Source: Gemmatimonadaceae bacterium (GTDB lineage Bacteria > Gemmatimonadota > Gemmatimonadetes > Gemmatimonadales > Gemmatimonadaceae). Taken from it: 64,000 nt of DNA. This document shows, in pieces, positions 51,351 to 57,025 of the stretch. A program made the translations under genes and the position numbers. A model generated the notes under the pieces. The model worked only from the letters and a program-made list of their open reading frames with translations, was not told the DNA's origin and made no database searches. Each line of letters begins with the position of its first letter. Position 1 is the first letter of the stretch. The stretch spans positions 2,143,586 to 2,207,585 of the forward strand of contig JAHBVS010000001.1 in NCBI GenBank assembly GCA_019637445.1, in the 5' to 3' direction.

Positions 51351-51911
51351 TTATCGCGGGACTCCAGGCCGAGCGTCAACACCTCCACTTCCGTTCCGGA
51401 GGGCGAACCGCCCATCCTCGATTGTCAGCAGCAGCACGGCTCCCGTGCGAAACGTGAGCGTGGAGTCGAACTGCAGGAGTGGCGGCACGGCCGTGGAGCG
51501 CGCGACGGCGGAGTCCACGGGCTCGATCCGTTCGAAGCGCACCTGGACGCGGTGGGCACCGGGTGCCACGGGATAGTCACGGAGTGTCGCCAGCGCACGG
51601 TCACCGCGTAGGCCGCTGCCGCGCAGGCGCGCGGAATCGCGCGAGACCTCGTCAATCCCCACGGTCAACGCATACGACGCGCTGCTGCCCTCGCAGACCA
51701 CCGACTGGCGCATGTGCGCGGGTCGCTGCGCCTGCTCCTGCTCACTCAGGGTCCGGCAGCGCTCAACTCGCTCGGGCCTCACGCTCCACGAGAGCCGCAG
51801 TGCGGCCGCGTCCTCTGCGTGCCACGCCACCGCGACGCCGGAACTGACAGCGAGTCCCCAGAGGGCCAGGGCGAGCGCGAGACCCGCGGCCAAGCGGCGA
51901 AGTGGGTTCAC
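51351..51911 (-). CDS. Hypothetical exported/membrane-anchored protein
   Basis: 186 residues. N-terminal hydrophobic helix (LAAGLALALALWGLAVSSGVA), then a beta-rich domain with two Cys (VERCRTL and SVVCEGSS). Overlaps the cytochrome b fusion gene by 4 nt, so it is translated with it and may be an accessory subunit (inference). Confidence 0.6.
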   Translation of the reverse strand: MNPLRRLAAGLALALALWGLAVSSGVAVAWHAEDAAALRLSWSVRPERVERCRTLSEQEQAQRPAHMRQSVVCEGSSASYALTVGIDEVSRDSARLRGSGLRGDRALATLRDYPVAPGAHRVQVRFERIEPVDSAVARSTAVPPLLQFDSTLTFRTGAVLLLTIEDGRFALRNGSGGVDARPGVPR

Positions 51912-53473
51912 GGCTCTTCCTCCAGCGCGGCTGGCACGCAGGCCTCTTGCAGGACAACGCTGGCCTCTTCGACCGGTGCCTGCAGCGTCAGCACCTGTCG
52001 ACGGAACTGCTCGAAGGATTCGAGCGCCTCGTCGTCGCAGCCCAACGCGGCGGTCGCGACCGCGACACGGGAGCGGTCCACGCGGTCCTGAAGTTCAGCC
52101 TCCCGGTCGTGGTAGAAACGCTGCTCCAGCCACTTGGGGCCCTCGCGCCCCACGCAGTCTCGCGGCGGACAGCCAAGCACGAGAACGCCCGCGGCGCCCT
52201 GCCGTACCAGCAGCTCGACCACGGATGAGTGCAGGTTGCCGACACACGCGATGTCGTGCAGCAACGCGCCGGCGGCGCGGAGGCGCCGCGCCAATCCCGC
52301 CGAACCTTCCGTGCAGCGGACGACGACCACCCGCTGGTCGCGAGTCCGGTCCGCCAGCGCGGGCAGGGTCGTGTCGCGCGTCGTGGCGAGCTGGTCGCGA
52401 CCCGTGCGTCCTGGCGGCCCGACGCCCATGGGGGCGCAGGAACCCGCGCAGATGCCGCAGCTGACGCAGCGTTCGGGGTCGACGAGCGCCACGAGGCGCT
52501 CGTCGCCGTCCTCGCGCGGCACCATCTGGATGGCGCCCCAGGGGCAGTCCTGCGTGCACTGGTCGCAGCCCGTGCAAAGGCGCGGATTCACCCAACTCGG
52601 CGCCCACGATCCCTCGCGTGGTCGGCGGGCGAGCCACGGGACGGCGAGGGTGAGGACCGTCAGTGACGCCAGGGCGACCCAGGTCAGCCACGGTTCGCTG
52701 GCCTCCGCGAGCGGCAGCCACCACGCGGAGGTCAGGGCGAGCGGTGTCGTGGCCGGCAGCGCGAGTCCATCGGCGGCGGGGCCAAGCGGCGCCGGCATCA
52801 CCACGGCCACGAGCGTGAGCAGTGCCGTCGCACTCCACTTCAGGACCGGCGGAGGAGCGAGCGTCGGCCGGGCGACGCGCGACGTGTGCAGCCACAACCC
52901 GGCGCCCATCGCCAACGGCAGCGCGATGTGCACGAACAGGTTGAGGAAGAAGAACGCCTGGGGGGGCTGGCTGTCGCCGGCGAACATGCGGCCCACGGGT
53001 TCGGAGAGGATCGGGAGCACGTCGAACAGGTCGGCACCGGCCACCGCGAGGCGCAGCCCGAAGCTGTCCCACGCCATCACGAACCCCGTCCACGCGCAGG
53101 CCAGCCCCACGCCGACGAGAAACACACCGCTGACCCACGCCAGCGCGCGGGGGCCCCACTCTCGAGACTGGCCGATGAACCGTAGCGCGTGCAATCCCGC
53201 CGCGAGCAAGAAGGCGTCGGTGGCGTAGCGATGCAGCGTGCGCACCCATGCGCCGAAGATGGGATCCGCGGCGATGCGCTGCACGGACGCCGCCGGTGCG
53301 CCGACCCGGTAGAACAGCAGGAGGTACGTGCCGGTGACGAACAACACCAGCAGCAGCCACGACGCCAAGGCGCCGCTCTGGTGCAGGGGATTCCAGCGCC
53401 AATGCAGCAGCCGATGCATGAGGGCATCCGAACCGCGAACAATCCTCCGCACGAACCGCTCGAGCCAGCGCAT
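51908..53473 (-). CDS. Cytochrome b / ferredoxin / MvhD fusion protein
   Basis: 521 residues in three parts. 1) N-terminal cytochrome b (about 1-240) with two bis-His pairs spaced by 13 residues: LHRYATDAFLLAAGLHALR and VHIALPLAMGAGLWLH. 2) Two [4Fe-4S] ferredoxin motifs CTGCDQCTQDC and CVSCGICAGSC. 3) C-terminal MvhD-like Fe-S domain (VRCTEGSAGL, ACVGNLHSS, VLVLGCPPRDC). Thus it can bring electrons between the quinone pool and iron-sulfur carriers. It is divergent from the heme-copper genes at 53604. Confidence 0.83.
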   Translation of the reverse strand: MRWLERFVRRIVRGSDALMHRLLHWRWNPLHQSGALASWLLLVLFVTGTYLLLFYRVGAPAASVQRIAADPIFGAWVRTLHRYATDAFLLAAGLHALRFIGQSREWGPRALAWVSGVFLVGVGLACAWTGFVMAWDSFGLRLAVAGADLFDVLPILSEPVGRMFAGDSQPPQAFFFLNLFVHIALPLAMGAGLWLHTSRVARPTLAPPPVLKWSATALLTLVAVVMPAPLGPAADGLALPATTPLALTSAWWLPLAEASEPWLTWVALASLTVLTLAVPWLARRPREGSWAPSWVNPRLCTGCDQCTQDCPWGAIQMVPREDGDERLVALVDPERCVSCGICAGSCAPMGVGPPGRTGRDQLATTRDTTLPALADRTRDQRVVVVRCTEGSAGLARRLRAAGALLHDIACVGNLHSSVVELLVRQGAAGVLVLGCPPRDCVGREGPKWLEQRFYHDREAELQDRVDRSRVAVATAALGCDDEALESFEQFRRQVLTLQAPVEEASVVLQEACVPAALEEEP

Positions 53474-53603: not shown

Positions 53604-53768
53604 ATGGATCCGAATCCTCCAAGCGCCGACGAGCGCATCCCGCTGATGCAGCGGTTGTTCGACAACGTCTGGCTCCTGCTCATCGCAGGAATCGTCGTGA
53701 TGTTCGTCGTCTACACCGGGTGGGGCATGTGGGAGATTCTCACGATGCCCGACGGTACACTCCCCTGA
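53604..53768 (+). CDS. Small single-helix subunit of the heme-copper enzyme
   Basis: 54 residues with one membrane helix (NVWLLLIAGIVVMFVVYTGWGMW). Encoded 7 nt before subunit II; resembles the small subunit IIa found with ba3-type B-family oxidases in size and position. Confidence 0.65.
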   Translation: MDPNPPSADERIPLMQRLFDNVWLLLIAGIVVMFVVYTGWGMWEILTMPDGTLP

Positions 53769-53775
53769 GGCGCCA

Positions 53776-54381
53776 ATGCTCACCAAGGTCCATACGGGAC
53801 TCGACCCCGTCCCCGGCGTCTGGTGGCGTCCGGCCCACAAGACGGAGAAAGTCTGGGTAGGCATCGCCTTCGCGTGGTGCCTCGTGCTCTTCGCCATGAT
53901 GCCGCTCTGGCATTGGAAGGGCGGCCAGAATCCCTCGGGCATCCGCACCAAGGTCGACCCCAACGCATTCTACGCGCGCACCGTCGCGTTCGCGACGCAG
54001 TACCAGGTCGGCGTGGACAAGGGGATCCCGATCGTCGCGCCGCCGCCCGGCAGCGATATCTACCTCACGGCGCTGGCGTTCCAGTGGTATCCGATCCTCC
54101 AGCTCGAGAAGGACAAGGAGTACATCCTCCACCTCTCGGCGCTCGACGTGAACCACGGGTTCAGCCTGTACCCGTTGAACGTGAACTTCCAGGTCGTGCC
54201 CGGCTACGACTACGGGTTGCGGGTGACGCCAACCGCAAGCGGCGACTTTCGGATCATCTGCAATGAATTCTGCGGGATCGGCCACCACACGATGGTCGGG
54301 CGGATGATCGTCGTCGACGCCGACGGCCAGACCGTCGCCGACAACGGGGGCGCGAAGGTCCTCAACGGAGGTGACCGATGA
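53776..54381 (+). CDS. Heme-copper oxidase/NO reductase subunit II with CuA
   Basis: 201 residues. One N-terminal membrane helix (VWVGIAFAWCLVLFAMMPLW), then a CuA cupredoxin. CuA ligands visible: His127 in DVNHGF, Cys162, Cys166, His170 and Met173 in ICNEFCGIGHHTM. This is the electron entry site from a cytochrome c or cupredoxin. Overlaps subunit I by 4 nt. Confidence 0.88.
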   Translation: MLTKVHTGLDPVPGVWWRPAHKTEKVWVGIAFAWCLVLFAMMPLWHWKGGQNPSGIRTKVDPNAFYARTVAFATQYQVGVDKGIPIVAPPPGSDIYLTALAFQWYPILQLEKDKEYILHLSALDVNHGFSLYPLNVNFQVVPGYDYGLRVTPTASGDFRIICNEFCGIGHHTMVGRMIVVDADGQTVADNGGAKVLNGGDR

Positions 54382-56126
54382 CCGCGCCAGCCGCGAGGGA
54401 GGACTTCCGCACCTGCCAATCCACCGGTCGCAGGGTGCACCGCGCGGTCGAGGGCCTGATCAAGGCCAACGCGGTCGTTTCCGTCGTCACGCTGCTCATC
54501 GGCGCCACCGCGGCGCTCCTGCTGGTGCTCACGCGCTGGCAGGCGGTGCATCTGCTCCCGGCCACCTGGTACTACCGGCTGCTGGGCGTGCACGGGATGA
54601 ACATGCTGATCTTCTTCATCATCTACTTCGAGATGGCGGTGCTGTGGTTTGCGGGGACCGTGCTGCTGAACGCACGGCCCGCCGCGCCACGCTTCGGCTG
54701 GTTCAACTTCGGCCTGATGCTGCTCGGCACGCTGATGGTGCAGTGGGCCCAGTGGACCGGCCGCGCCGACGTGCTCTTCACGTCGTATCCTCCCCTGAAG
54801 GCGCACCCGGTCTTCTACCTTGGCATCATCCTGTTCGCCGTCGGGGCCCTGCTGGTGACGGCGCAGTTCTTCGCGACCATCACGATTGCCAAGCGGGAGC
54901 GCCGCTACGAGGGCTCGATGCCCTTGGTCGTCTATGGCGCCGTGACCGCGGCTATCATCGCCGTCATTACCCTGCTGCACGGCGCCATCATCTACATCCC
55001 GACCTTCCTCTGGTCCCTCGGCATCGTCGACAGCATCGATCCGCAGGTCTACCGGATGATCTGGTGGGGGCTCGGCCACTCGTCGCAGCAGATCAACATG
55101 GCGGCGATGGTCGCCATATGGTACATGCTCGGCGCGCTCACCGTGGGCGCCGTCGTACTCAACGAGAAGGTGAGCCGCAGCGCGTTCGTGCTGTACGTGC
55201 TCTTCATCTCCATGGCGTCCGCCCACCACCTGTTGGTGGATCCCGGCTTCGGTCCGGCGTGGAAGATCACCAACACCTCGTATTTCATGTACATGGCGGT
55301 GCTGGCCTCCATGATCCACGGATTCACCGTGCCCGCGGGGATGGAGCTGGGCCAGCGTCTCCGTGGCTTCACGCAGGGGATGTTCGGCTGGCTCATCCGT
55401 GCGCCGTGGGGTGACCCGGGCTTCAGCTCCCTCGTGCTCTCGGTCGTCGTCTTTGGGTTCGTCGGTGGCATCACGGGCGTGACCATCGGGACCGAGCAGA
55501 TCAACATCATCGTGCACAACACGCTGCGGGTGCCGGGCCACTTCCATGCCACCGTCGTGAGCGGAACCGCGCTCGCCTTCATGGGGGCGACCTACTACCT
55601 CCTTCCGCTGATATTCCAGCGCAAGGTCGCGTTCTGGGGATTCGCCAAGTGGCAGCCGTATCTCTTCTCGTTCGGCGTCTTCCTCCTCTCGATGGGGATG
55701 ACCTTCGCCGGAAGCTTCGGGGTGCCTCGGCGGCATTGGGACAACTCGTTCCAGGATGCCATGTTCAACGTGGAGATGAGCCCTGCCGTGGACCTGATGC
55801 TGGCCATCATGGGGATCGGCGGCATCCTGGCGGTCACGGGCGCCTTCGGATTCATCGCCATTGCGGTGAAGTCGGTGTTCTTCGGCGAGCCCATCGGGAC
55901 GATCACGAAGGGCTCGGCCATGGTCGGCGTTCCGCAGGGGCTCACGCATCCGCCCGTGCACGCCGTTGACGCCGACGCCCGGAACGAGGAGCTGCACGCA
56001 CCGGCGCGTGGCTGGATGGGCCCGACGCCTGGCACGGTCGTGCTGGTCGGCATCTTCTTCGTGGCCTTCATGACGTACTACTTCACGAACTGGAAACTGC
56101 TGGCGTTCCTGTGGAAGGTCGGGTGA
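54378..56126 (+). CDS. B-family heme-copper enzyme subunit I lacking the active-site Tyr
   Basis: 582 residues, about 13 membrane helices. Ligands line up with Thermus ba3: low-spin heme His72 and His390, high-spin heme His388, CuB-type ligands His234, His283 and His284 (GLGHSSQQIN, SAHHLLVDPGF, VPGHFHATV). The HPxVY motif that carries the cross-linked Tyr237 in ba3 is replaced by HSSQQ, with Gln238 at the Tyr position. Loss of this Tyr is characteristic of nitric oxide reductases (cNOR/qNOR also lack it), so NO reduction is more likely than O2 reduction. Confidence 0.85.
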   Translation: MTAPAAREDFRTCQSTGRRVHRAVEGLIKANAVVSVVTLLIGATAALLLVLTRWQAVHLLPATWYYRLLGVHGMNMLIFFIIYFEMAVLWFAGTVLLNARPAAPRFGWFNFGLMLLGTLMVQWAQWTGRADVLFTSYPPLKAHPVFYLGIILFAVGALLVTAQFFATITIAKRERRYEGSMPLVVYGAVTAAIIAVITLLHGAIIYIPTFLWSLGIVDSIDPQVYRMIWWGLGHSSQQINMAAMVAIWYMLGALTVGAVVLNEKVSRSAFVLYVLFISMASAHHLLVDPGFGPAWKITNTSYFMYMAVLASMIHGFTVPAGMELGQRLRGFTQGMFGWLIRAPWGDPGFSSLVLSVVVFGFVGGITGVTIGTEQINIIVHNTLRVPGHFHATVVSGTALAFMGATYYLLPLIFQRKVAFWGFAKWQPYLFSFGVFLLSMGMTFAGSFGVPRRHWDNSFQDAMFNVEMSPAVDLMLAIMGIGGILAVTGAFGFIAIAVKSVFFGEPIGTITKGSAMVGVPQGLTHPPVHAVDADARNEELHAPARGWMGPTPGTVVLVGIFFVAFMTYYFTNWKLLAFLWKVG

Positions 56127-57025
56127 TGCATGCGGCGGGGCCACGGCCGCCATTCGCGGTCGTGGCTCTCGTCGTGATCCTTGCCGTCTCCGCCGCGTGG
56201 TGGGCGCTGGCGCTCTGGCCGCTGCCCGCGGAGGCTCCGCGTTGGTTACTCGCGACGCGCGAGGTCTGCTTCGGCGCGACCTCGGACGGCCTGCCGCACG
56301 CGGGTGGATGGGTGTTGCTCATCGGTGAGCCACTGGGCCTGCTGGCCATCCTCGGGATCGTCTGGGGCCGTGAACTTCGGGACGGCCTGACCCGCCTGCA
56401 CCAGCGGCTCCCGGGGCGTCTGGCGAGCGGCGCCGTCGTCCTGGCACTCGCGCTGGGTCTGGGGGCTGCCGCGCACCGCGTGTCGAGCGCACGCGTCGCC
56501 GTCGGTGAGCCCTTCGACGTCAACGCGCCGTTGCCCGCGCGAGGCAGCGCGGACGCGCCCGTGCTCGAACTCGTCGACCAGCACGGGAACCCCACGGCGC
56601 TGCGCGACTATCGTGGGCAATGGGTGATGTTGACGTTCACCTTTGGCCACTGCGATGACATCTGCCCTGTGATCGTCGACCACGCCAAGCGCGCACGCGT
56701 GGATGCTGGCGCCGCGGGGCTTCCGCTCCTCGTCGTCACGCTGGACCCCTGGCGAGATACGCCGGAGCGTCTGGCGACCCTCGCGCAGCAATGGGGCCTC
56801 GGCCCCGAGGATCGCTTTCTCTCCGGAGAGATTGCGGAGGTGAATCGGCAGCTGGATCTCTGGCGCGTCCCGCGCGTCCGTGACGAACGTACGGGTGCGA
56901 TCGGGCATGGAAGCACCATCATCGTGGTTGATCCGGCGGGGCGCGTCGCCTGGCGCATCGAGGGGGCGCCACACCGGGTCCGCGAGGCGCTACGCCTCGT
57001 CGCAACGGAGTCGCCGGCACCGTAG
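56126..57025 (+). CDS. Sco-family copper chaperone with membrane N-terminus
   Basis: 299 residues. N-terminal part of about three membrane helices (VVALVVILAVSAAWWALALW, GGWVLLIGEPLGLLAILGIVW, ASGAVVLALALGLGAA), then a SCO1/SenC domain with the copper Cys pair GHCDDICPVIVDH and distal His in IGHGSTIIVVDPAG. Delivers copper to CuA. Start ATG 56126 shares its A with the subunit I stop (TGATG). Confidence 0.85.
   Translation: MHAAGPRPPFAVVALVVILAVSAAWWALALWPLPAEAPRWLLATREVCFGATSDGLPHAGGWVLLIGEPLGLLAILGIVWGRELRDGLTRLHQRLPGRLASGAVVLALALGLGAAAHRVSSARVAVGEPFDVNAPLPARGSADAPVLELVDQHGNPTALRDYRGQWVMLTFTFGHCDDICPVIVDHAKRARVDAGAAGLPLLVVTLDPWRDTPERLATLAQQWGLGPEDRFLSGEIAEVNRQLDLWRVPRVRDERTGAIGHGSTIIVVDPAGRVAWRIEGAPHRVREALRLVATESPAP

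Follow-up and report, generated by a model that had tools for sequence, protein, structure and literature searches.

Within the 64,000-nucleotide stretch of DNA from Gemmatimonadaceae bacterium analyzed here (the window) lies a locus whose product is very likely a nitric oxide reductase of the eNOR family. Subunit I of this family is identified by a Gln at the position of the oxidase Tyr (PMC8756737, section 2.7.1 and Table A4), and a cupredoxin subunit II is encoded immediately upstream of it (PMC8756737). By this published definition, the Gln residue and the upstream cupredoxin subunit II of the window place its enzyme in a known kind. The active-site residue is Tyr in oxidases, Glu in cNOR and qNOR, Asn in sNOR and CuANOR, Asp in gNOR, and Gln in eNOR, for which one proton channel is predicted (PMC8756737, Table A4). 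A separate source counts eNOR among four biochemically characterized NO reductase families, with citation of Murali et al. 2024 (PMC11388526). Our assignment rests on the diagnostic residue, the subunit make-up, and the relatives, all read from sequence, and NO reductase activity of the window enzyme is probable by analogy with published work on the family. Hemp and Gennis 2008 and Murali et al. 2024 are said to be sources on eNOR. A preliminary description had called the enzyme a probable NO reductase, which was right, but it missed that the family was already published; its reading of a B-family-derived NO reductase with CuA agrees with published eNOR, while its other option, altered O2 chemistry, is not needed.

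Subunit I is encoded on the forward strand at 54378–56126, an open reading frame (ORF) of 582 residues without an internal stop, and displays the B-family heme-copper fold with six His ligands and Gln238 at the position of the cross-linked Tyr. The protein scored above the cut-off of the Pfam COX1 model (E = 2.6e-62) and far under the NCBIfam cut-offs for subunit I of cytochrome c oxidase and quinol oxidase. Its closest solved structures were Thermus ba3 (E ~1e-47) and the B-family entry 7deg (E = 1.1e-47). Alignment paired HPIVY of ba3 (His233–Tyr237) with HSSQQ of the window subunit I (His234–Gln238), and the metal-ligand His residues fell at positions 72, 234, 283, 284, 388, and 390; when checked against the ORF and the alignment, the coordinates, residue numbers, and His ligands given in the preliminary description were all correct. 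With Gln238 in place of Tyr237 of ba3, the enzyme lacks the residue that defines the oxidases. An AlphaFold model of subunit I (pLDDT 84, pTM 0.87) matched ba3 subunits I with Z ~35 and rmsd of 2.3–2.8, and aa3 subunits I also reached Z ~35; the match of the model to ba3 is evidence of fold, not of function.

Relatives were collected by a scan with an alignment of four relatives, taking one genome per species, which yielded 237 relatives and 80 retained loci. The window, these 80 loci, and three plasmid-borne relatives gave 84 Gln-type sequences spanning more than 10 phyla, which were aligned with three B-family oxidases. Gln237 and Gln238 were present in all 84, window included, whereas the three oxidases have Val-Tyr, so neither chance nor sequencing error could plausibly account for the Tyr-to-Gln substitution. 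The earlier claim that HPxVY is replaced by HSSQQ, and Tyr237 by Gln238, is thereby confirmed both by the ba3 alignment and across the Gln-type set. Residues invariant in the Gln-type sequences and different in the oxidases were Glu85, Gln237, Gln238, Asn240, Tyr273, Asn299, Tyr302, and His314 (84/84). Among all 87 aligned sequences, His72, His234, His283, His284, and His388 were invariant, and position 390 (window numbering) was His in 83 and Lys in four. The latter (L008, L066, L074, and L087, from Thermus, Aquificota, and two Bacteroidota) carry HFK for HFH, with Lys where ba3 has the low-spin heme ligand His386. In a quick maximum-likelihood tree built from 93 rows, one branch (SH-aLRT 99) had all 84 Gln rows to one side, and another had eight Tyr-bearing B-family rows together to one side; some long branches meet in this tree, so we did not rely on its finer branching. 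The Gln group includes the Gln proteins of Thermus and Thermomicrobium, set apart from the Tyr rows with SH-aLRT 99.

Subunit I belongs to a tight co-directional set with a 54-residue protein, the CuA subunit II, and an SCO-type chaperone. Subunit II (53776–54381, forward strand, 201 residues) matched Pfam COX2 and, in part, CoxB, and joins an N-terminal membrane helix to a cupredoxin domain; its gene shares 4 bases with the start of the subunit I gene. The full CuA site previously attributed to it is there, with all ligands present (H127, C162, E164, C166, H170, and M173) and invariant in 19 eNOR-type subunits II. Directly upstream lies the gene of a conserved, small, single-helix subunit (53604–53768, forward strand, 54 residues), 38–42% identical to annotated small ORFs of Defluviimonas, Thermomicrobium, and Thermus; similar ORFs occur in at least 22 other loci. 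The SCO1/SenC-type copper chaperone (56126–57025, forward strand; Pfam SCO1-SenC, E = 4.5e-20) has an N-terminal membrane segment and is a probable assembly factor for CuA, with homologues near eNOR in most loci. Defluviimonas has the same gene order apart from a heme o synthase gene that separates subunit I from SCO; in Thermomicrobium and Thermus, the first three genes (54-residue protein, subunit II, and subunit I) are retained.

Compared with the ba3 oxygen reductase of Thermus thermophilus, the window eNOR shares the fold (26–27% identity, Z ~35), the metal ligands, and a CuA subunit II, but has Gln238 for Tyr237, Val245 for Tyr244, and His314 for Thr312. Electrons would enter at the CuA center of subunit II, pass to the low-spin heme (His72, His390), and reach the high-spin heme (His388) and CuB (His234, His283, and His284), where two NO would be converted to N2O and water. 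Gln238, which replaces the cross-linked Tyr, probably forms with Gln237 and Asn240 the lining of a polar site that suits NO. Oxidases need the cross-linked Tyr to split O2; because NO reduction requires no four-electron O–O cleavage, it is compatible with the lack of a Tyr radical donor. The K-channel residues of ba3, namely Glu15 of subunit II (at the channel entry), Tyr248, Ser309, Thr312, Tyr244, and Tyr237, are partly retained in the alignment. Glu15, Tyr248, and Ser309 correspond to Glu24, Tyr249, and Ser311; besides the Tyr237 exchange, Thr312 is replaced by His in 84/84 and Tyr244 by Val or Ile. Protons would come from the cytoplasm, probably via a modified K channel comprising Glu24 of subunit II, Ser311, His314, and Tyr249. 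Given proton delivery from the cytoplasm through such an altered channel, NO reduction may be electrogenic, as has been proposed in the literature for eNOR (PMC8756737).

Published eNOR has the same Gln for the oxidase Tyr, six His, two-subunit core with an upstream CuA subunit II, and K-channel entry Glu, and we found no difference in any defining feature. That the window instead holds another NO reductase derived from the B family is extremely improbable: bNOR (CuANOR), sNOR, and gNOR are all B-family relatives with a cupredoxin subunit II, but their active site holds Asn (sNOR, CuANOR) or Asp (gNOR) according to Table A4 of PMC8756737, where Gln is found here in 84/84. We rejected bNOR/CuANOR and sNOR, which require the Asn, and gNOR, which requires the Asp. 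cNOR and qNOR catalyze the same reaction but are C-family relatives with an active-site Glu and without a CuA subunit; they were rejected on their requirement for Glu plus heme c or a fused quinol subunit, against Gln and a CuA subunit II in the window.

It is also very unlikely that the enzyme is an O2 reductase that works without the His–Tyr cross-link or uses a displaced Tyr, such as Tyr273 on helix VII, as radical donor. C-family (cbb3) oxidases do take their active-site Tyr from helix VII, and the cbb3-type CcoN of this genome (L002) has Tyr six residues before His-His. An alternative Tyr, which the preliminary description named as grounds for refuting its reading, was sought by sequence, with a divided outcome. 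The eNOR position equivalent to the cbb3 Tyr (277) is Ile or Leu in 40/40, which counts against a cbb3-like replacement, but all 84 eNOR-type proteins have Tyr273, one helical turn further along helix VII, where the B-family rows have Phe. Tyr273 could be a proton-channel residue. A ba3-type B-family oxygen reductase was rejected on HSSQQ in place of the HPxVY cross-link Tyr, and a cbb3-type C-family oxygen reductase on the absence of the helix-VII Tyr. Further against O2 reduction, the genome already has two intact oxidases, nirK, nirS, and heme-d1 genes neighbor eNOR in many loci, and eNOR is listed as a characterized NO reductase family (PMC11388526).

A gene divergent from those of eNOR, on the reverse strand at 51908–53473, encodes a protein in which Pfam identified cytochrome b, two 4Fe-4S motifs, and an FlpD/MvhD-type domain. 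The product is a di-heme cytochrome b with heme His residues H80, H94, H181, and H195, and its FlpD/MvhD-type domain carries C386, C409, C434, and C439. These ligands (four heme His, eight 4Fe-4S Cys, and the FlpD Cys) are invariant in 35 sequences, save C439, which is found in 32/35. The protein model reached a pLDDT of 91, and a fold search with the cytochrome b model returned only bc1/b6f cytochrome b among the best rows. All 40 fully flanked loci have the gene near eNOR; counted over every locus, it lies upstream and divergent in 27 and downstream and co-directional in 38, with homologues in L006 and L012–L091. Within Gemmatimonadota, it is present in 47/49 eNOR-bearing genomes versus 3/151 others (p ~1e-39, with shared ancestry ignored), and it lies 852–1646 bases from eNOR in all 45 genomes with both on the same contig. 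Of the five exceptions to this co-occurrence, one (G117) has no more than a fragment of eNOR, located at the edge of a contig. The gene was not found within 8 kb of eNOR in Thermomicrobium or Thermus, whose enzymes are 46–49% identical to the Gemmatimonadota member, and is thus not essential for the whole family.

The cytochrome b/Fe–S/FlpD protein is a probable dedicated redox partner of eNOR, which would transfer electrons between quinone or a cytosolic donor and the enzyme and probably supplies or balances its electrons. We advance more tentatively, as a possibility rather than the expected outcome, the broader proposal that eNOR of the large branch (Gemmatimonadota, Pseudomonadota, Verrucomicrobiota, Myxococcota, Bacteroidota, and Aquificota) uses this di-heme protein as a dedicated membrane partner, by which NO reduction would be coupled either to the quinone pool or to a low-potential donor in the cytosol. 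If true, this would be an electron-input module, none of which we found described for any heme-copper NO reductase. No description of the link between eNOR and this gene was found in the literature searched, a scope that Murali 2024 lay outside, and we claim no priority. The near-universal neighbor nonetheless offers a testable lead on the electron supply of eNOR.

NirK and NosZ were sought in the same genome by protein family, which identified a copper nitrite reductase NirK (346 bits, cut-off 296), on a different contig from eNOR, and a clade II type nitrous oxide reductase NosZ (916 bits, cut-off 625). Three full-length COX1 proteins are encoded: an A-family oxidase (GHPEVY), the cbb3-type CcoN, and eNOR. 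Since the other two are A-family and cbb3-type oxidases, this leaves eNOR as the sole candidate NO reductase among the COX1-family proteins, with no cNOR or qNOR among the full-length ones, provided that the COX1 model reaches NorB. The enzyme would link NirK as producer of NO to clade II NosZ as consumer of N2O, and Gemmatimonadaceae bacterium probably denitrifies nitrite to nitrogen gas. The NirK (L105:5708-7153) is a NirK–cytochrome c fusion, extended at its C-terminus by a segment that contains a CxxCH heme c motif. Two short proteins of 145 and 153 residues (L105:5164-5601, beside nirK, and L106:8960-9421, near nosZ) weakly resemble the first third of COX1 (E ~2e-7, under the Pfam cut-off), and an Rrf2-family regulator (L106:8399-8911) is encoded between nosZ and the short COX1-like gene.

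In other genomes, nirK occurs within 10 kb of eNOR in L012 (the closest relative), L030/L103, L031, L034, L043, L067, L068, and L104, and was confirmed over the TIGR02376 cut-off in four loci (L012, L103, L104, and L067). NirS-type cytochrome d1 domains were detected by PF02239 in L036, L050, L066, L083, and L088; short tblastn matches to NirS beside subunit II (L006, L052, and L063) were not counted as NirS. Unsupervised clustering of neighbors was blurred by antisense ORFs in the GC-rich DNA and served only for marker choice. Most Gemmatimonadota loci (among L013–L045) have an Rrf2-family regulator in the gap that separates subunit II from the cytochrome b gene, where the window has no room for it; Rrf2 is the superfamily of NsrR and IscR. 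Many proteobacterial eNOR loci have a hemerythrin-like gene after the cytochrome b gene (L050, L052, L055, L057–L059, L063, L065, L070, L078–L080, L083, and L084). Ardenticatena is reported to have eNOR in an operon with nirK (PMC4653789).

The same NO chemistry could instead serve to detoxify external NO rather than NirK-coupled respiration, an alternative that is compatible with eNOR identity and concerns physiology only. NirK is absent from 39/49 eNOR-bearing Gemmatimonadota genomes, and Rrf2-type regulators (22 loci) and hemerythrins (19 loci) lie near eNOR, all of which would favor detoxification. We consider this role somewhat unlikely here, given that the genome has both NirK and NosZ and that CuA, the entry Glu of the K channel, and the cytochrome b partner are all conserved, which suggests that the enzyme conserves energy.

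Denitrification by way of eNOR also bears on the phylum, in which the enzyme was present in 49/200 genomes. NosZ occurred in 26/49 genomes with eNOR versus 50/151 without (p = 0.017), a modest association, and NirK in 10/49 versus 16/151 (p = 0.09), which is not significant; both values ignore shared ancestry. This weak co-occurrence, like the location of nirK and eNOR on separate contigs in the genome studied here, counts against our reading. NirK, eNOR, and NosZ were found together in six of the 200, including the genome studied here. In a published survey, none of more than 400 Gemmatimonadota MAGs was reported to have a complete denitrification pathway (PMC10581226); that survey probably missed eNOR, which was presumably not among the genes sought. 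Because standard annotation names eNOR genes cytochrome c oxidase, NO reduction is overlooked. The eNOR kind itself is known; what our analysis adds is its Gemmatimonadota members and their consistent partner gene. Recognition of eNOR alters predictions of which bacteria make N2O and which consume it.
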